A DNA stretch of 64,000 bases from Herbidospora galbida. GTDB lineage: Bacteria; Actinomycetota; Actinomycetes; Streptosporangiales; Streptosporangiaceae. A program made the position numbers and the translations under genes. Of the stretch, positions 54,981 through 64,000 are shown in pieces. The DNA is taken from NCBI RefSeq assembly GCF_005233835.1, contig NZ_SZQA01000040.1:1-64000 (forward strand), written 5' to 3'. The notes under the pieces were generated by a model. It had not been told where the DNA came from. It was given only the letters and a program-made list of their open reading frames with translations, and did no database searches. Position 1 is the stretch's first letter; each line of letters begins with the position of its first letter.

Positions 54981-55886
54981 TCACTGGTAGCGCGGGGACT
55001 CCAGCAGCCATTCCAGGTAGGCCCGGGGCGCTCCGAACAGCGCGGCGGCCACCTTCTCGACGTCGTCGGGAACCCCGTGCTCCGCGTACGTCTCGGGCAG
55101 CGCCTTGGCCGCGTCGGTCAAATCCTCGGCCCGCTCCACGATCCGGTCGGCCACCCACTCGGCCGGGGCGGGCACCCCGATCCTCGAGGCCGCCACCCGC
55201 AGGTAGTTGTGCGGGTCGCCGCGCTCCTTGCCGAGCGAGGCCACGTCGTTGCACCAGGCCGTCACGTCGACCACGGCCTCCACGAGCGTCCGCCAGGGCG
55301 GGGTGGCGTGCAGCCGTCCGGGCACCTCGATCCGCAGGCACCCCTCGACGATCTCGGCGCCGGGGCCCGCGAAGACGTCCCGCCGCAGCGACGGGTACTC
55401 CCCGGCCGACGGCACCCGCCCGATCGACCGGTTCACCGCCTGCATCCGGCACGCCTGGGCCTGCGCCTCCATCCGCGCCGCGAACCGCTGCTCCCAGGCC
55501 GGGCTCATGTCGGGCGCGGTCACCCGCCACAGGTCGCCGAACGCCGCCACCAGCGGCTCGTCGGTCGCCCGGCCGGTCCGGGCGGCGTCGCGCAGCCGGC
55601 CCTGCATCTGGTCGAGCACGGTGGTGTCCCGGCTGCCGCTGCCCTCGTCGCACCAGTCGTCGTAGGCCAGCTGCCAGGTGACCCACCGGGCGAGCAGCTC
55701 GTTGCCCGGCAGCACCCGGGCGGCCAGTCGCTGCGGACGGGCGTGGATCGACAGCCCGTAGAGCCCGGCCCAGGCCCCCAGCGCGCGCGTGTCGCACTCG
55801 ACCGGCTCTCCGAGGACCGGCGGGAGGGCGTACGCGAGCGGGGCCAGAACGGCCGCAGCCGAAGGTATGCGCAGCTCAGGGGTCAT
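54981..55886 (-). CDS. Class I terpene synthase
   Basis: 301 residues. Metal-binding motifs: the aspartate-rich AYDDWCDEG (about residue 74) and the NSE-type WCNDVASLGKERGD (about residue 225), followed by LESPRY near the C-terminus as in the conserved RY pair. Length and motifs match bacterial sesquiterpene or monoterpene cyclases. It ionises a prenyl diphosphate with three magnesium ions; product unknown. No prenyl-diphosphate synthase or P450 gene is nearby, so substrate must come from elsewhere. First gene of a tight minus-strand trio with the expansin and kinase genes. Confidence 0.92.
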   Translation of the reverse strand: MTPELRIPSAAAVLAPLAYALPPVLGEPVECDTRALGAWAGLYGLSIHARPQRLAARVLPGNELLARWVTWQLAYDDWCDEGSGSRDTTVLDQMQGRLRDAARTGRATDEPLVAAFGDLWRVTAPDMSPAWEQRFAARMEAQAQACRMQAVNRSIGRVPSAGEYPSLRRDVFAGPGAEIVEGCLRIEVPGRLHATPPWRTLVEAVVDVTAWCNDVASLGKERGDPHNYLRVAASRIGVPAPAEWVADRIVERAEDLTDAAKALPETYAEHGVPDDVEKVAAALFGAPRAYLEWLLESPRYQ

Positions 55887-55956: not shown

Positions 55957-55972
55957 GTAACGTATGTGAAAC
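55957..55972 (+). promoter_or_regulatory. GlnR-like box upstream of glnA2
   Basis: GTAAC (55957-55961), six bases, GAAAC (55968-55972) is an exact match to the gTnAC-n6-GaAAc nitrogen-regulator consensus known from Streptomyces. It ends 56 bases before the glutamine synthetase start codon. A second half-box pair is not seen. Confidence 0.6.
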
Positions 55973-56028
55973 ACACAAGGGGCACACTGGTAGGTGCCCA
56001 GACATGGAACTTTCGTGAGGTAGTCGCC

Positions 56029-57390
56029 TTGGACCGCCAGCAGGAATTCGTCCTCCGCACGCTAGAAGAGCGCGACATCCGGTTCATCCGGCTCTGGTTC
56101 ACGGACGTTCTCGGCTTCCTGAAGTCCGTAGCCATCGCGCCCGCCGAACTCGAAGGCGCGTTCGCCGAGGGCATCGGCTTCGACGGCTCCGCCATCGAGG
56201 GGTTCTCCCGGGTCTACGAGTCGGACATGCTCGCCAAGCCCGACCCGTCGACCTTCCAGATCCTCCCGTGGCGCAGCGAGACGCCCGGCGCGGCCCGGAT
56301 GTTCTGCGACATCCTGATGCCCGACGGCTCCCCGTCGCACGCCGACCCCCGCTGGGTGCTCAAGCGCACCCTGGCCAGGGCCGCCGACATGGGCTTCACC
56401 TTCTACACCCACCCCGAAGTCGAGTTCTTCCTGCTCCGGAACCGCCCCGAAAAGGGGGTCCGGCCCGAGCCGATCGATGACGGCGGCTACTTCGACCACA
56501 CCCCGCACAGCGCCGGCCACGACTTCCGCCGCAACGCGATCATGATGCTGGAGGCCATGGGCATCTCGGTGGAGTTCAGCCACCACGAGGGCGCCCCCGG
56601 CCAGCAGGAGATCGACCTCCGCTACGCCGACGCGCTGTCGACCGCCGACAACATCATGACGTTCCGGCTGGTCATGAAGGAGGTGGCGCTCGAACAGGGC
56701 GTCTGGGCCTCGTTCATGCCGAAGCCGTTCACCGAATACCCCGGCTCGGGCATGCACACCCACATGTCCCTGTTCGAGGGCGACCGCAACGCCTTCTACG
56801 AGCCCGGTTCGGACTACCAGCTCTCCAAGGTCGGCCGCTCGTTCATCGGCGGACTGCTGAAGCACGCCGCCGAGATCACGGCGGTCTGTAACCAGTGGGT
56901 GAACTCCTACAAGCGCCTGTGGGGCGACACCGAGGCCATCGCGGGGGCGGGCGGCGAGGCGCCGTCGTACATCTGCTGGGGGCACAACAACCGGTCGGCC
57001 CTGGTGCGCGTGCCGATGTACAAGCCGCACAAGGGCGGCTCGACCCGCATTGAGTTCCGGTCGCTCGACTCGGCCTGCAACCCCTACCTGGCCTACGCGA
57101 TGATCCTCGCGGCCGGGCTGAAGGGGATCGAAGAGGGCTACGACATCCCCGCCGGGGCCGAAGACGACGTGTGGGCGCTGACCTCGGGCGAGCGGCGCGC
57201 GCTGGGCATCCACCCGCTGCCGCAGTCGCTCGACGAGGCGATCACGGCGATGGAGCACTCGGAACTCGCGGCCGAGACGCTCGGGGAGCACGTGTTCGAC
57301 TACTTCCTGCGGAACAAGCGGTCGGAGTGGCGCGAGTACCGGCGCCAGGTGACCGAGTTCGAATTGGGGCGCTACCTGCCGGTCCTCTGA
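56029..57390 (+). CDS. glnA2: Glutamine synthetase-like enzyme GlnA2
   Basis: 453 residues from a TTG at 56029 (site GTGAGG upstream; the product MDRQQEFVLRTLEERDIRFI matches GlnA2 N-termini). Type I glutamine synthetase fold: FDGSAIEGFSRVYESDM, ATP/metal-binding EVEFFLL, HHEGAPGQQEIDLRYADALS, the KPFTEYPGSGMHTHMSLF loop, VNSYKRLW and NNRSALVRVP. In Streptomyces coelicolor the closely similar GlnA2 has been described as a gamma-glutamylpolyamine synthetase, so this may detoxify polyamines and not be the main nitrogen-assimilating enzyme. Its 3' end overlaps a convergent decayed gene by 19 bases. Confidence 0.93.
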   Translation: MDRQQEFVLRTLEERDIRFIRLWFTDVLGFLKSVAIAPAELEGAFAEGIGFDGSAIEGFSRVYESDMLAKPDPSTFQILPWRSETPGAARMFCDILMPDGSPSHADPRWVLKRTLARAADMGFTFYTHPEVEFFLLRNRPEKGVRPEPIDDGGYFDHTPHSAGHDFRRNAIMMLEAMGISVEFSHHEGAPGQQEIDLRYADALSTADNIMTFRLVMKEVALEQGVWASFMPKPFTEYPGSGMHTHMSLFEGDRNAFYEPGSDYQLSKVGRSFIGGLLKHAAEITAVCNQWVNSYKRLWGDTEAIAGAGGEAPSYICWGHNNRSALVRVPMYKPHKGGSTRIEFRSLDSACNPYLAYAMILAAGLKGIEEGYDIPAGAEDDVWALTSGERRALGIHPLPQSLDEAITAMEHSELAAETLGEHVFDYFLRNKRSEWREYRRQVTEFELGRYLPVL

Positions 57391-58076
57391 TGCCGGGTGA
57401 CCGCCGGCACGATCGCCGCCGCGACCCAGGCGACGTGGAGCAGCGTGACGACGAGCCAGGCGTTCTCTCGTCACCTGGGCGGCCGCCATGACGATGGAGG
57501 TCAGCATGAGGCCGGCGGTGATCGGCAGGTAGACGCGTAGCGTCCGACCGGCCGTGAGAAACCGCCTGGCCTGCCCGGGGCCGAGCCACCAGTGGAGGGC
57601 CGGCCAGAGGAGCAGGCTCAAGGCGGCGACGACGCCGGCCGCGGCGGCCGCCGCCCCGGGGGAGGGCGGCACTCCGTCGTCCAGCACGGGGAAGCCGAGC
57701 CATATCGTGACGAGGAAGGGCAGAAAGCAGAGGCAGGCCGCGAAGCCCGTCGCCGAGGCGGTGAGCCGGCCGGGGAGTCCTCGATCCCGCGGCCCACCCA
57801 CTTCAGGCTGGGCCCGGAGAGCACGATGAAGACGAAGATCGACAGGACGACGCCCGGCGTCCAGGAGAAACGCTTCTCCACCGGTTCGTCGGGCACCGGG
57901 ACGGCCGCCTTCGCGGCGTGGTGGTCCGCTTCGAGCAGCAGGTCGCGGCCGGGGTCCGCGGCGTAGGCCTCGGCCAGCGCCTGATGGGCCGTCGGGTCGT
58001 CGGGGTTCTTCTCCATCAGGGCGTCTACTCTGGCCCGAGCCTGATCGAAGTCTTTTTGAACGCACAATGCAGCCAC
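57372..58076 (-). pseudogene. Membrane protein gene broken by two compensating frameshifts
   Basis: Three pieces in two frames read as one protein. Piece 1 (from about 58076) is a helical TPR-like stretch and first membrane helix: DFDQARARVDALMEKNPDDP, SWTPGVVLSIFVFIVLSG, WVGRGIEDSP. Near 57773 the frame changes and piece 2 gives three more helices: GFAACLCFLPFLVTIWLGFP, VVAALSLLLWPALHWWLG, TAGLMLTSIVMAAAQV. Near 57469 the frame returns and piece 3 ends NAWLVVTLLHVAWVAAAIVP then VTRHQRTGR before a TAG at 57372. One base seems lost and one gained. It lies behind the ATPase/HNH genes. No function is assigned. Sequencing error cannot be excluded. Confidence 0.7.
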
Positions 58077-58212
58077 TGAGTCGTAATCAGCGAAGGACTT
58101 GTGTGCAGGCCGCGACGATGCCGCCGACGATCGCGCACGTCGTGTCGACGTCGCCGCCCGCCGAGGCAGGGAGGCGTGGGCGAGGGAAGGGGGCATCCCC
58201 TCCATGGTGGGA

Positions 58213-58917
58213 TCAAGAACCGTCCTCGTAGGTCCTCAGTACGGCGACGACTTCCGGGCCGCCCAGGAAGGCGGGTGGGTTCTTGAGACCGCTCGCGATG
58301 ATCATCGCGGCCAGCACGTCCGCAAAGGGCTGCGCGGACAACGAGGATCGGATCTCGTCGGCTTCCGCTCCCGCGCATCTGCCCAGGTCTCTCAGCATGC
58401 ATTTGGTGCGGATGAAGGCCGCCCGCCGTCCCTTCACCAGGTCGGCGCGGTTGAGGCCGAACACCTCGATGGTCGCCTCGCCCTGTGGTGTGAGTGCCTC
58501 GTAGGCGCCGCCGGTGAGGCTGAGCCACAGGTGATCGGCCGGGTCGGCGGATGACGGATCGATCAGCAGAGGGGCGCCGATGTCGTCGCGGGGGAACCGG
58601 TCGCGCTTGCCGTGGCTGTTGCAGTGGGTGCAGGCGAGCAGGTGGTTGAGCCAGTCGAACACGCGTAACGGGGTCTCGTGCAGCGGCTCGAAATGGTCGA
58701 TCGCGGTGCCGAGGCTGTCACCGCAGTACATGCACCGGCTGATGCCGGTCGCCATCTCCATGAGGTGTCCGGTCAGTCTGCGCCGGGTGCTCTTCGCGTT
58801 TTGCCAGGCGGTTCGGGCCCGGTCGGTGCCGGCGATCCCGGTCGACAGTTCGCCGGTGCGCCGGGCGAGGTCCTCGACCAGACTCCCCGGCAACTGGACG
58901 CGGTGGATGCGGATCAT
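58213..58917 (-). CDS. ptuB: HNH nuclease, PtuB-like (Septu defence candidate)
   Basis: 234 residues. The HNH core lies at 62-105: C62-MYC65 and C96-THC99 form the zinc site, D74-H75 in AIDHFEPL and N91 in DWLNH complete the catalytic motif, followed by NSHGKRDRFP. This pattern (CxxC, DHxxP-like, WxN, ACxxCN) is that of PtuB nucleases in Septu systems and of HNH enzymes next to retron ATPases. ATG at 58917 overlaps the ATPase stop (ATGA), the usual PtuA-PtuB coupling. It should cut DNA when activated, for example during phage infection. Confidence 0.88.
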   Translation of the reverse strand: MIRIHRVQLPGSLVEDLARRTGELSTGIAGTDRARTAWQNAKSTRRRLTGHLMEMATGISRCMYCGDSLGTAIDHFEPLHETPLRVFDWLNHLLACTHCNSHGKRDRFPRDDIGAPLLIDPSSADPADHLWLSLTGGAYEALTPQGEATIEVFGLNRADLVKGRRAAFIRTKCMLRDLGRCAGAEADEIRSSLSAQPFADVLAAMIIASGLKNPPAFLGGPEVVAVLRTYEDGS

Positions 58918-60206
58918 TCTGCCGGGCGGATCCGGGCCGCGACCTCGTCCACCCTGGCCGTGAGCGAGCTGTTCAGCGTCTCCTGCAGTTCCTCGAACTC
59001 CCCTTCCTCCTCGGGGGTGGCCTGCCCCCGGAGGACGGCGCGCTCCAGGACCACCAGGCGCCTGCGCATGGCCTCGGCTCTGGGAGAGTAGGGCGTCTCG
59101 ATGCCGAACAGGTCGCTGAGCAGGGCGTCGTCACCGCTGCCGTAGACGACCCGCTCGTAGAGGTCGTCGTTCACGACCGCGGGGGAAGCGTCTTCGTCGA
59201 CCCCGGGGAGGCGGATCAGGCCGCCCGGGTCGGCCGACTGGCAGATGTAGGGGCTGTGGGTGGTGACGATGAACTGGATGTTGGGGAAGTGGGCCTTCAG
59301 CCAGCCGCCGATCTTCTGCTGCCAGCTCACGTGCAGGTGGGCGTCGATCTCGTCGATGAGCACGACACCTGACCTGGTGATCGCCGCGCTGGGCGCCGAT
59401 TCGGGGAAGGCCGCGCTCATCTGCCGCACCAGGTCGAGGACCAAGGCGGTGACCGCGCGATAGCCGTCGCTCATCTCGCGCATCGGGATCCGGCGACCGT
59501 CTCTGCGGGCCCACAGCCCGTCGCTGTCGACGCGGTCGACCTGAAAGCCGTCAGGGAGAAGCCCGTCGTTGAGGAGGCGCAGCGCGAAGGTGAGAAGCGC
59601 CGCCGCCTGCCTGTTGCCTTCGAGCCGTCTCAGGTGCAGATCGATCAACCAGGTGACGCCTTCGGCGAGTGAGGCGTCTTCGTTGAACAGGGTCGCCAGG
59701 CGGGAGACCGGCCCCGGCCGCTGCATCAGGCGCTGTGCTTCGGCCGAACCGCCGACCAGGCGGCGGAAAGGGCCGTATCCCGCGTAGAACCAGCCCTGAA
59801 GATCAGGTGCCCACGGACCGAGTTTCGCGTCCGGAGTGTGGCCGATCATCATCGCGCGGCCGATGTGATGCCCAGATGGACGCCAGGAGATCACGGTCCC
59901 GAGCAGTAGGGGCCGGTCATCGGTCGAGACGTCGTCCGCGTCCTGGGTGAAACCGGTCGTCACCGTCGCCTGGGCGCGTTCGTCGGTGACCCAGCCTTCG
60001 AAGTCGAGAGTGAGGCTCAGCGCGACGTCCGGCCCGGCCAGTGCGAGTGCGATCGCCCGCAGGATGGTCGTCTTCCCGGAGCCGTTCCTGCCCGCCAGGA
60101 CGGTCCAGCCGGCGTGGCTGCCGTCTGGTCTGGTCAGCCGCAGGTCGACGTCGCGGGCTCCGGTGAAGCCCTTGACGTCCGAGATCTTGATCTCCGTGAC
60201 GTACAC
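58914..60206 (-). CDS. ptuA: AAA/ABC-type ATPase, PtuA-like (Septu defence candidate)
   Basis: 430 residues from a GTG at 60206. Walker A GRNGSGKTT (39-47), a long helical middle, an ABC-signature-like MREMSDGYRA (about 242-251), Walker B VVLIDEIDAHLH (281-292) and the H-loop TTHSP (315-319) place it in the AAA_15/AAA_21 family of SMC-like defence ATPases. An acidic C-terminal tail (QATPEEEGEFEELQETL) follows. Together with the overlapping HNH gene it makes a Septu-type pair; it is shorter than the first described PtuA. It starts 13 bases after the stop of the GTPase gene, so it is likely part of the GAP1 operon. Confidence 0.9.
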   Translation of the reverse strand: MYVTEIKISDVKGFTGARDVDLRLTRPDGSHAGWTVLAGRNGSGKTTILRAIALALAGPDVALSLTLDFEGWVTDERAQATVTTGFTQDADDVSTDDRPLLLGTVISWRPSGHHIGRAMMIGHTPDAKLGPWAPDLQGWFYAGYGPFRRLVGGSAEAQRLMQRPGPVSRLATLFNEDASLAEGVTWLIDLHLRRLEGNRQAAALLTFALRLLNDGLLPDGFQVDRVDSDGLWARRDGRRIPMREMSDGYRAVTALVLDLVRQMSAAFPESAPSAAITRSGVVLIDEIDAHLHVSWQQKIGGWLKAHFPNIQFIVTTHSPYICQSADPGGLIRLPGVDEDASPAVVNDDLYERVVYGSGDDALLSDLFGIETPYSPRAEAMRRRLVVLERAVLRGQATPEEEGEFEELQETLNSSLTARVDEVAARIRPAE

Positions 60207-60219
60207 GGCTCGATCGTAG

Positions 60220-61839
60220 TCATCTGCTGACGTACCAGAGGATCAGACCGGCCACCGCGCCTACGCTGAGCAACACGCTGGTCGTGAAGAGTAACCGCCG
60301 GACCACGGTGTAGCTCAGTGGAGGCCGCCCCTCGGGCCTGGCGCGAGGCCGCCACGGTTCCCCGGCCGCCCGGTCAGCCCTCCGTTCGCCGTTCAGGCCG
60401 GTCAGCCACGTCACCAGCCCCGCGATCTCGTCCGCCCGGGGCGGCAGGCCCGACGTCGCGTACCGGACCTCCGATCCCCGGTTCGACAGGTCGCGGACCA
60501 AGTTCCCCATGCCCATCGTCGTCAGCCACGCCTGCGGATCCTCCGAGGCCCCCTGCCCGGTCGTCGTCCGGTCGAGGAGGTCGCCCTTGGTCACCACGAC
60601 CGCGATCCGCCGCTGGTGCCCCCCGTCCGCGCGCGTCGACAGCTCGTTGCGCACCCGGTGGACCGTGTCGGCCGGGTCCTCCCGTGAGGGGACCACGCCC
60701 CCGGCCGCCAGCAGTTCCCGGTCGGCAGGCACAAGGCTGTCCTGGACGGCGGGCAGCGCGAACGGGTCGATCAGCAGCACCATCGCCTCGCCGTGGGCCA
60801 GGTACCCCATCGCCTCGACCCGGCTGGCCCCCGTGTAGTGCTCTCCGGAGGGGTCGAACAGGTACAGGATCCGGGCCGACACGTCGAGCATGACGGCTTT
60901 CGGGAGTTGGGTCCCGGTCTTGGTCATGGTCCCCGCCGCCAACGCCTGGCGCAGGCGGAGGAAGGTCTGCTCGTCGCCCTGGTCGACGAACCGGGCCCCG
61001 GAGGTCTCGCGCAGCGCGTCGACGGCCACCGCGAGGAAGGTCGTCTTCCCGGCGTCGGGTCCGCCCACCAGCGGGACCGGCTCCACCCGCACCTTACCGA
61101 TCTTCCCGGGCAGCGTCCGTCCGCAGTGGGGGCACAACGCCCGCAGCCGGTGGCGGCCGAGCAGGATCGTGGTGGGCAGCCGCGCGCCGCACCGGCACAC
61201 GTGCCGGAAGGCCCCGTTCCGGTCGGGGCGCAGCGCCCGGTGCTGGGCCTCGCACGACGGGCACACGTAGATCGGCCGGTCGATCCGGGCGTAACAGCCG
61301 GGATAGGGGCAGGCCTGGAGGATCCGCCGCAGCAGCATGACCGACTGCTCGACCCCGCGCAGCACGGCCACGAACGTCAGCCACGCCAGCAGCCCGGCCG
61401 CCACCGTCACCAGGTAGGCCGCCGTGACGAGCAGGGCCACCAGGCTCAGGGGCAGCAGCGCCGCCAGCAGGCCGGCCACCACCGCCAGCCACAACGGGAA
61501 GAGCACGTAGCGCCGCTCGTCCGACATCAGCAGCCTGGTCAGCGCGCGGACCACCCGCCGGACCCGCCCGTCGACGACCGGCACCGCCCCGGCCAAAACC
61601 GCCCACCAGTCCTGCCAGACCTGCGACACCAGGTAGTGCCGGTGGGCGGGCTCAAGGCCCTCCGGCGGCGCGCGCACCCCCCGGTCCGGGAGCAAAACGC
61701 GGGCCGCCGTCGTGAAGTACGCCCACAGCGCCCCCAGCACCGCCACCGCCACGGTCGCCGCGAAGACCACCGGGAAGACGAACGCGAAGGCCGCCCACAT
61801 GGCGACGAGCCAGAAGCCGGCCAGGACGAGCCACCACAT
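60220..61839 (-). CDS. Membrane-bound zinc-ribbon GTPase of a GAP1-type conflict system
   Basis: 539 residues. An N-terminal membrane helix pair (about 3-50) and another hydrophobic block (about 112-160) precede three zinc-ribbon-like Cys clusters (CPYPGC, CPSC, CRCG, CPHC; residues 177-240). The GTPase part has P-loop GGPDAGKTT (259-267) and G4-like VVVTKGD, with no ordinary DxxG. A final membrane helix (LLFTTSVLLSVGAVAGLILW) ends the protein. This resembles the double-GTPase family associated with GAP1 in NTP-dependent biological-conflict systems. The GAP1 gene abuts it exactly (TAGATG) and an ATPase gene follows 13 bases later. Confidence 0.88.
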   Translation of the reverse strand: MWWLVLAGFWLVAMWAAFAFVFPVVFAATVAVAVLGALWAYFTTAARVLLPDRGVRAPPEGLEPAHRHYLVSQVWQDWWAVLAGAVPVVDGRVRRVVRALTRLLMSDERRYVLFPLWLAVVAGLLAALLPLSLVALLVTAAYLVTVAAGLLAWLTFVAVLRGVEQSVMLLRRILQACPYPGCYARIDRPIYVCPSCEAQHRALRPDRNGAFRHVCRCGARLPTTILLGRHRLRALCPHCGRTLPGKIGKVRVEPVPLVGGPDAGKTTFLAVAVDALRETSGARFVDQGDEQTFLRLRQALAAGTMTKTGTQLPKAVMLDVSARILYLFDPSGEHYTGASRVEAMGYLAHGEAMVLLIDPFALPAVQDSLVPADRELLAAGGVVPSREDPADTVHRVRNELSTRADGGHQRRIAVVVTKGDLLDRTTTGQGASEDPQAWLTTMGMGNLVRDLSNRGSEVRYATSGLPPRADEIAGLVTWLTGLNGERRADRAAGEPWRPRARPEGRPPLSYTVVRRLLFTTSVLLSVGAVAGLILWYVSR

Positions 61840-64000
61840 CTACCGTTCTCCGCGCCCGAACAGCCGTCTCCGCTGACCGGCCAGTTCCTTCAGGCCGGCG
61901 GCCAGTTCGGCGTCCTGTTTGAAGCGGGCCTCCATCGAGCCGAAGCGGCCCCAGTTGTTGACCTCCGAGCGGGCCCAGGCGTCCAGGCGGGGTTCGATCA
62001 CCCCGGCCACGCGCATCCTGATCGCGATCTCCAGCAGGGCCATCTGCTGGTCGCGGTTGCGGCGGGGTTTGAGCCATTCGGGGATCAGCCAGCGGCGGGT
62101 CGCGTCGGTGACGGCCTTGGCGACCGTCGAGCGGAAGCGGGGGTCGCGGGTGGCCAGCACCTTCGCGCACGTCGCCCGGGTCAGTTCGGCGAGTTCGGCG
62201 TTGCCCTCGCGGGTGAGGTCGGTCAGGCGGTCGATCGCGGTGGCGGCCTCCACCGGCGTGGGGGCCGACGGCAGGCGGGCGGCGATGAGGGTCGCCTCGG
62301 CGTCGTCGGCGGGGAAGCCGGGCAGGCCGTCGCGGACGCGTTCGGCCAGCTCCAGGGCCTCGCCGCTGGCCAGGCCCGCCTTCACGAACGCGCGGCCGGG
62401 GAGTTCGCCCAGGGTCGGGCTGGCGTCCATACGCGGGCCGAGCAGGTCGACCAGGCGGCCGATCTCGCCCGGGGTCGGCTGCGCGGTCCACAGCGACGGG
62501 AGGGCCTGTTCGCGGAAGCCGTCGAACGCGCGGTCCATGAGTTCGACCGTGGTGTCGACGCGGTCGCGGCCGCCGTGCAGCGTCTGCCAGCGCAGCACCG
62601 CCACCCCCGTACGGGGGGCGCGGCGCCAGTCGCGGCGGGCTCCGGCGAGCAGGCCGCACAGGGTGGCGCTCACCTCGCCGGGGGCGGCCTCCAGGCCGGC
62701 CACGTAACCGGCGATCATCGCCTCGCGCCAGGCGGCGGGGGTGCGGGCCAGTTCGGCCGCCGCCTCCTCCTGGTTGCCGGGGACGGCCCGCGCCGCCGCC
62801 GACTCCACCTCGGCCGCGTCGACCGGCAGGTCGCAGGCGTCGGCCACGCGCACGATCCCGGCCACCTGGGCGGGGGTGAGTGCCGACCGCAGCGCGGCGG
62901 TGGCCTCGGCGCCGAGCGCGGACGCGTAACCCGGGGGCGGCAGCCGTACCGGCAGGGGCAGTGCCGGGTCGCGCAGCGCGAGCGACACGCACCGGGCCGC
63001 GCCCTCGGCGGCGTGGACGGCCACCTCGGCGGCCAGGTCGTAGGTCAGCAGCCCGGCCTGGGAGGCCAGCCGCTGCCACGCCCAGTCGGGCAGGCCGCCC
63101 GCGGAGAGCCGGGCGACGGCGGTCTGCTCCTCGGGGGAGACCGTGTGGTCGCCGCGGCAGAGCGCCAGCAGCGCCGCCGCCGTCTCGGGGTCGTCGCCCA
63201 GTTCGCCGAGCGCGTCGAGCCCGTCGAGGTCGCCGCGCCGCCAGAACCCGGCGACCGTCCCGGCGAAGCGCCCGGTCCGCACGGGCGCGGCCGGTTCGTC
63301 GAGCCGGACGACCGTCGCGTCGACGTCCGGCGGGATCCACACGTCGGGGGTGGTCCCGGCGATGACCTGGCCCGAGGAGGCCGGATCGGCCGTGTACGTC
63401 ACGAACGACAGCCGGATCGCCGACGCCCACGGCAGCGAGAAGGAGATGACCGCGATCCACCGCACCACCTCGGCGACGTCGGCGCTGACCAGCACCAGCC
63501 GCCCGTGCCCCCGGGTGAGGAACAGCCGCACCGCCTCCAGCAGCCCGCCGAGCCGCACATAGGCGTCGGGGCCGAGCGCGGCCAGCCACGCCACCAGCCC
63601 CTCAGGGTCGAGGAGGGGGCCGGGCGACGGCTCCAGCACCGGCAGCTCAGGGCCGTCGGAGGGCCGGGCGGCCCACCAGGGCGCCTCCCAGAACTCGATC
63701 GGCCGCAGCCCGACCAGTTCCCCCTCGCCGGGCAGCACGGCGTGCGCCAGGAAGTTCCCATAACGTCCGGAATAGTCCTGGCCCAGGTAGACGCACCGGA
63801 CGAGCATCCCGGCCCCGTAGGCCATCGAGACCGGCAGCCCGGCGATCTCGGCGGGCGTCGGCGCGAGCGGGGCGTCCGGCGGGGGCTGGTAGACCAGGTA
63901 GGGCGCGCTGCGCTCCCGCAGGACGGGCGGCAGGCCGGTGGTCTCGGCGGTCACCTGGAACCCCGAGCGGCCCGAGGGGCCCGATTCGGCCGACGTGTAC
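61840..64000 (-). CDS. GTPase-associated protein 1 (GAP1), start outside the window
   Basis: At least 719 codons are visible. A GTG at 63954 could be called as the start, but the frame is open up to the window edge and the upstream codons read YTSAESGPSGRSGFQ, which matches the normal GAP1 beginning (YTS then GFQ). The gene is therefore cut at its 5' end. GAP1-N type features: YLVYQPPPDAP, PTPAEIAGLPVSMAYGAG, YLGQDYSGRYGNFLAHAVLP. A long helical middle and a C-terminal domain rich in Arg (LIPEWLKPRRNRDQQ) follow. Described GAP1 proteins accompany GTPases in conflict systems of complex bacteria. It abuts the GTPase gene. Confidence 0.88.
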   Translation of the reverse strand, partial: YTSAESGPSGRSGFQVTAETTGLPPVLRERSAPYLVYQPPPDAPLAPTPAEIAGLPVSMAYGAGMLVRCVYLGQDYSGRYGNFLAHAVLPGEGELVGLRPIEFWEAPWWAARPSDGPELPVLEPSPGPLLDPEGLVAWLAALGPDAYVRLGGLLEAVRLFLTRGHGRLVLVSADVAEVVRWIAVISFSLPWASAIRLSFVTYTADPASSGQVIAGTTPDVWIPPDVDATVVRLDEPAAPVRTGRFAGTVAGFWRRGDLDGLDALGELGDDPETAAALLALCRGDHTVSPEEQTAVARLSAGGLPDWAWQRLASQAGLLTYDLAAEVAVHAAEGAARCVSLALRDPALPLPVRLPPPGYASALGAEATAALRSALTPAQVAGIVRVADACDLPVDAAEVESAAARAVPGNQEEAAAELARTPAAWREAMIAGYVAGLEAAPGEVSATLCGLLAGARRDWRRAPRTGVAVLRWQTLHGGRDRVDTTVELMDRAFDGFREQALPSLWTAQPTPGEIGRLVDLLGPRMDASPTLGELPGRAFVKAGLASGEALELAERVRDGLPGFPADDAEATLIAARLPSAPTPVEAATAIDRLTDLTREGNAELAELTRATCAKVLATRDPRFRSTVAKAVTDATRRWLIPEWLKPRRNRDQQMALLEIAIRMRVAGVIEPRLDAWARSEVNNWGRFGSMEARFKQDAELAAGLKELAGQRRRLFGRGER

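Follow-up and report, generated by a model that had tools for sequence, protein, structure and literature searches.

Probable capture of a type I Septu pair at the tail of a GAP1/DO-GTPase operon in Herbidospora

Gene content of the locus

The window analysed here is a stretch of 64,000 nucleotides from Herbidospora galbida (assembly GCF_005233835.1, contig NZ_SZQA01000040.1, positions 1 to 64,000). Its right end carries four tightly packed minus-strand genes, as the initial annotation had described them. In order of transcription they encode a GAP1 protein (61840..64000 in the window, with its start at 64017 outside), a GTPase of the DO-GTPase2 family (60220..61839), and the ABC-type ATPase PtuA (58914..60206, GTG start) and the HNH protein PtuB (58213..58917) of a predicted type I Septu defence pair. 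The subject of this report is the Septu pair, which was most likely captured at the tail of the operon to which the first two genes belong.

The open reading frame coordinates give a spacing of 13 bp between the GTPase gene and ptuA and an overlap of 4 bp between ptuA and ptuB. At the GAP1–GTPase junction, the TAG stop directly abuts the ATG start, as first described, but the two codons have no base in common and are 0 bp apart. Within 57300-61000 no promoter-like site was found, although the scan was limited to the sigma-70 consensus and is uninformative in this high-GC (guanine plus cytosine) genome. The sole terminator-like site there (57749-57734) lies 3' of ptuB and is no more than shuffled sequences yield (mean 0.8). 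Because of the 13-bp gap, the short leader and the 4-bp overlap, with no internal promoter or terminator found, a single transcript for all four genes, as initially proposed, is likely, and ptuAB are probably transcribed together with the GTPase operon.

By family models, ptuA and ptuB form a complete type I Septu pair. PtuA matches the PADLOC model PtuA1 (PDLC00269) at 4.4e-167 over residues 1-426 of 430, and PtuB, encoded by the gene next to it, matches PtuB1 (PDLC00317) at 3.6e-85 over residues 1-229 of 234. In Pfam, PtuA matches AAA_21 (7e-24) and PtuB matches HNH (0.0019, under its cut-off). PtuA contains Walker A and Walker B motifs (GRNGSGKTT at residue 39; VLIDEIDAH at 282), of which K45 and E286 are invariant in 23 aligned stretches. 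PtuB contains IDHFEPL at residue 73, and residues H75 and N100 are invariant in 20 aligned stretches. Sequence similarity to the solved proteins is partial: PtuA matches 8ee4 in part (1e-20), and PtuB matches 22bv at 1.2e-4. The combination of an AAA protein with an HNH protein had been read as the Septu layout from the start, and the PADLOC models bear this out and place it in type I.

The GTPase–chaperone operon

The GAP1 protein matches GAP1-N2 (4e-33) and GAP1-M (6e-20) in Pfam, and the last GTPase matches DO-GTPase2 (1.9e-21). These matches agree with the earlier assignment of GAP1 plus GTPase to a predicted class of conflict systems. The GAP1-N2 domain spans 63631-64017, so the gene begins beyond the window. 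The DO-GTPase2 protein, as judged by eye, has CxxC pairs and hydrophobic stretches at its N- and C-termini.

The operon does not start with GAP1. Further upstream, the same contig encodes a second DO-GTPase (64021-65115) and, as far as its end at 66568, the C-terminal portion of a large FNIII-like protein. Contig C71 of the H. galbida genome ends in the N-terminal part (residues 1-330) of the FNIII-like protein, with HSP70 adjoining (98% identity). Because C71 thus supplies the absent N-terminal part together with HSP70, the operon very probably continues on this contig. The full order is present in H. yilanensis: GrpE (Pfam 1e-11), HSP70 (1e-106), the large FNIII-like protein, DO-GTPase (1e-10; the homologue on the H. 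galbida contig is the one given above), GAP1 as the penultimate gene and DO-GTPase2 as the final gene.

This order matches the HSP70 theme of GAP1-N2 systems, a theme that accounts for about 14% of GAP1-N2 neighbourhoods according to the parts of Kaur et al. 2020 (PMC7159879) available to us. The likeness extends to GrpE, HSP70, two DO-GTPases where the theme has one or two, a GAP1 protein with both its N2 and M domains, and a large protein at the FNIII position. HSP70 and GrpE are both linked to the core in H. yilanensis, and in H. galbida HSP70 is found at the end of C71. The operon differs from the published scheme, as far as those parts describe it, in that Pfam FNIII is found in none of 17 members of the large protein's family. 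In the theme, the FNIII-repeat protein is fused to DnaJ or TPR; the eight Pfam families matched by any of the 17 members (E<=0.5) include neither FNIII, DnaJ nor TPR. An AlphaFold model of the protein has a helical N half and a beta C half, but is poor (mean predicted local distance difference test score 43). From its resemblance by eye, the large protein should be the FNIII component of the scheme of Kaur et al. The protein encoded between HSP70 and the first DO-GTPase in H. yilanensis (L126:12251-14719) is well conserved among 16 aligned homologues, and none of these 17 members gives a convincing match in Pfam.

The prediction of GAP1/DO-GTPase systems comes from gene neighbourhoods. A literature search at the level of titles and abstracts turned up Kaur et al. 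and a phage-shock-protein paper with a single mention of them, and no experimental test among the entries listed. Besides its core locus, H. sakaeratensis carries a second, distant GAP1/DO-GTPase locus (G033:C7:1032078-1033741).

Operon tails across Herbidospora

The GTPase gene is present in 7/7 Herbidospora genomes, and the core operon lies beside the same two genes in six of them. In the window these synteny anchors are glnA, a convergent glutamine synthetase gene (55966..57390, plus strand; TIGR00653 1.4e-133, Gln-synt_C 5.7e-123), and a terpene synthase family 2 gene (54981..55886, minus strand; PF19086 9e-31). In Herbidospora genome G109 the anchors were not found in the stretch examined, which ends at a contig end.

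Septu stands directly behind the GTPase gene in only two of the seven genomes, H. galbida and H. yilanensis, at 13 bp in each. A gene for an ADP-ribosylglycohydrolase (ARH) occupies the operon tail in four others, and a TIR-family protein is encoded there in two. The ARH start codon follows the GTPase stop codon after 4 bp in H. sakaeratensis, and ARH lies within about 10 bp of the GTPase in H. solisilvae (tblastn positions). ARH lies 13 bp behind the GTPase in H. daliensis (simple gene caller), where genes encoding TIR and TPR proteins come next. In G109 a lectin/pectate-lyase-like gene follows the GTPase, and ARH and then a TIR-family homologue follow that. In H. cretacea no gene was called between the GTPase and glnA.

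ARH together with a TIR-family protein (H. daliensis, L128:6660-8698; G109, L130:12481-14630) places NAD/ADP-ribose chemistry beside the core of a conflict system. PADLOC was uninformative on these proteins: it assigned the TIR protein to a candidate family (9e-8) and the upstream GTPase to mad8 (3e-4), and gave no match at 0.001 for ARH, HSP70, GrpE or the FNIII-like protein. In H. daliensis and H. solisilvae there is likewise a PtuA, but a distinct one (49-50% identity) encoded on a separate contig from the GTPase.

The insertion site

In both Septu carriers the ARH start follows ptuB, and Septu is thus positioned between the GTPase stop and the ARH start. The body of ARH is deleted in both. 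In the window the ARH scar (58108..58205, minus strand), recognised by blastn against H. sakaeratensis and by alignment, fuses the first ~45 bp of the gene with a stretch of ~60 bp close to its 3' end. Beyond it lies the remnant of a TPR-protein gene (57618..58107, minus strand), recognised by tblastn, blastn and the Pfam matches of the H. daliensis protein, which has 370 aa. Although it looks plausible, a 195-aa open reading frame at 57618-58205 was rejected as a gene of the system, since this chimera consists of the ARH scar and the TPR-gene remnant. The breakpoints of the H. yilanensis scar differ from those of H. galbida on both sides, and for this reason the two ARH losses look independent; alternatively, one shared deletion may have been extended stepwise.

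The pair resembles type I Septu in the near-full-length matches of both proteins, the two overlapping genes and the ATPase and HNH motifs, but differs in having almost no leader and in lying behind a foreign operon. The nearest upstream gene is at least 81 bp from ptuA in 21/21 other family copies measured, related species included, as against 13 bp in both Herbidospora copies. The simple gene caller used in this comparison can miss small genes, and copies aligned only after residue 5 (one in L158) were excluded. Judging from this difference in spacing, Septu seems to have lost its own leader and to rely on the host operon for its transcription. Tandem ptuA copies are found at L157:4714-7418 and L158:5160-7846; the matches to the upstream copies stop at query residues 371 and 345, respectively, and there is no ptuB match between the copies.

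Linkage in the family and the class

Among 150 genomes of the family, with weak matches counted, PtuA was found in 28, PtuB in 21, the GTPase in 49 and GAP1 in 48. Eight of the 28 ptuA genomes (G005, G028, G040, G053, G064, G078, G093 and G103) had weak, broken or contig-end matches and were left out of the neighbourhood comparison. None of the 20 other ptuA regions, which come from 18 genomes and have some flanks cut by contig ends, holds any gene of the operon (E<=1e-3), whereas 19 of them hold ptuB. PtuA/PtuB therefore occur regularly without GAP1/GTPase, the very observation that the initial annotation had named in advance as refuting its proposal.

In a larger, overlapping sample of 297 family genomes (E<=1e-30; distant DO-GTPases included in the GTPase count), PtuA was found in 43 genomes and the GTPase in 117, and both in 15 as against 16.9 expected (Fisher p 0.61). 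Both lie on one contig only in H. galbida and H. yilanensis (2/297), in a comparison that misses linkage across contig breaks and in which the further ptuA genomes were compared by position only. At the class level, PtuA (E<=1e-30) is present in 8/394 genomes and GAP1-N2 in 50/394; they occur together only in G000 and G462, and on separate contigs in G462. GAP1-GTPase-Septu was thus rejected as a recurrent system.

Among the titles and beginnings of abstracts listed by literature searches, none mentions a GAP1/GTPase–Septu linkage. The terms Septu and PtuA are absent from the main text of PMC7159879, and HNH occurs there once.

At 15 GTPase loci outside Herbidospora, a part of those found, no same-strand gene lies 50 bp or less from the GTPase stop; in 10 of them the neighbour is on the opposite strand. 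At these loci the operon seems to end with the GTPase.

Selection and descent

Between the two carriers, the ratio of nonsynonymous to synonymous substitution rates (dN/dS) is 0.16 for ptuA, 0.28 for ptuB residues 29-230, 0.14 for the GTPase and 0.18 for GAP1, indicating purifying selection. The synonymous rate itself (dS) reaches 0.34 in ptuA and 0.32 in the last GTPase, more than twice the 0.13 of GAP1.

The two carriers are not sisters on the locus tree. When the tree is built from core and anchor genes, H. yilanensis pairs with H. solisilvae (support 99), and H. galbida falls outside a group of these two with H. sakaeratensis and H. daliensis (82). Weak support for joining the two carriers comes from parts of the GTPase gene, namely its second half (55) and its final 400 columns (51). 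A single clean clade for the Septu insertion was accordingly rejected.

Discussion

We assign a probability of about 0.72 to the reading that an autonomous Septu pair was captured by lineage-specific insertion at the tail of a conserved GTPase–chaperone operon and most likely acts like other Septu pairs. It is favoured because the Septu models match, the operon order is conserved beside glnA and very probably continues on C71, the GTPase is retained throughout the genus, and ARH stands right behind the GTPase in H. sakaeratensis, H. daliensis and H. solisilvae. The ARH start and scars after ptuB, the missing linkage of other ptuA regions, the shortened upstream gap and the dN/dS values point the same way. 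So does base composition, with a GC content of 68% for the H. galbida ptuA and ptuB genes compared with 73-77% for its GAP1, GTPases and FNIII-like protein; this is weak evidence, since glnA of the same genome is equally low (67%).

On this reading, a type I Septu pair would have inserted without its own leader between DO-GTPase2 and the former next gene, ARH, and would now form the operon tail, probably under the operon promoter. By analogy with relatives, the ATPase PtuA would gate the HNH nuclease PtuB, and PtuB would attack nucleic acid on infection, either phage DNA or host tRNA. The pair would share expression with the GTPase system at most, and licensing at the protein level forms no part of the explanation.

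Retron-Eco7 (Ec78) and Septu Ec-B88 contain the same ATPase/HNH pair, and both activities are required for defence by the Ec-B88 PtuAB, according to the available parts of PMC11555353 and PMC13096335. Nicked DNA or tRNA-Tyr is reported there as the target of PtuAB relatives, one of which (retron-Eco4) lowers no tRNA. The initial description of the pair as an ATPase-controlled DNase is sustained by the family models in its ATPase/HNH composition; a DNase is one possibility for the activity. The locus differs from Retron-Eco7, so far as those parts describe it, in that no reverse transcriptase was matched among nine window proteins scanned with Pfam, a scan that was not a dedicated search and did not cover msr/msd.

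Several observations weigh against the favoured reading. Since the carriers are not sisters and H. solisilvae lacks the insertion, one vertical insertion requires that repeated losses or recombination between lineages be assumed. The H. yilanensis ptuB (L126:5347-6050) has a one-base deletion near codon 27 that shifts the frame; residues 29-230 are still 88% identical to the H. galbida protein, and the gene may be a dead copy or the deletion an assembly error. The NCBIfam matches fall under their equivalog cut-offs, for both PtuA (2.7e-37, 129 bits; cut-off 500) and PtuB (2.7e-7, 31 bits; cut-off 150). PADLOC also offers the label type IV mREase, whose models detect ptuA at 1.7e-111 and ptuB at 1.1e-58, but it was rejected because both matches are second to those of the Septu models. 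Finally, co-transcription is inferred, and a promoter may lie within the GTPase gene.

A less likely explanation is that the HSP70/GAP1/DO-GTPase switch controls whatever gene trails DO-GTPase2, formerly ARH (followed by TIR in two species) and now Septu. The varied tails of the genus, the decay of ARH with differing breakpoints in both carriers and the loss of the ptuA leader all fit such an exchangeable output, and constant cores with variable effectors have been described for GTPase-centric systems (Kaur et al., PMC7159879, in the parts available). However, the 15 loci outside Herbidospora argue against a conserved effector slot, H. cretacea has neither ARH nor Septu at this position, and in G109 the lectin/pectate-lyase-like gene separates the GTPase from ARH. 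The version restricted to Herbidospora, in which the core took over Septu as a replaceable output, with the leader lost, the ARH output displaced and the pair armed by the GTPase switch, appears slightly less probable still.

Neutral hitchhiking, with Septu decaying in a harmless gap before glnA under its own promoter inside the GTPase gene, seems improbable. The ptuB frameshift in H. yilanensis and the gene remnants behind ptuB are in line with decay, but dN/dS is well below 1 for both genes, the H. galbida frames are open with conserved motifs kept, and the limited scan revealed no promoter-like site. The compound defence system of the initial annotation, in which infection would be sensed by a membrane GTPase that then licenses PtuAB as a nuclease, is very improbable: although two species keep the 13-bp spacing and both modules are assigned to conflict or defence, the linkage is confined to 2/7 congeners, is seen in 0/20 other ptuA regions and is not repeated among 394 class genomes, and the two modules occur together in genomes at chance level (15 versus 16.9).

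Septu and GAP1-N2 systems are both known kinds, and the unusual part of this locus is the lineage-specific operon capture. The case is mainly a caution: a lineage-specific insertion can leave two defence modules closely spaced in one operon. If the replaceable-output explanation were true instead, the locus would represent an effector swap caught within one genus. With one core and varied tails (ARH, ARH plus TIR, Septu or none), Herbidospora provides a compact set for asking whether the core controls the gene that follows it.

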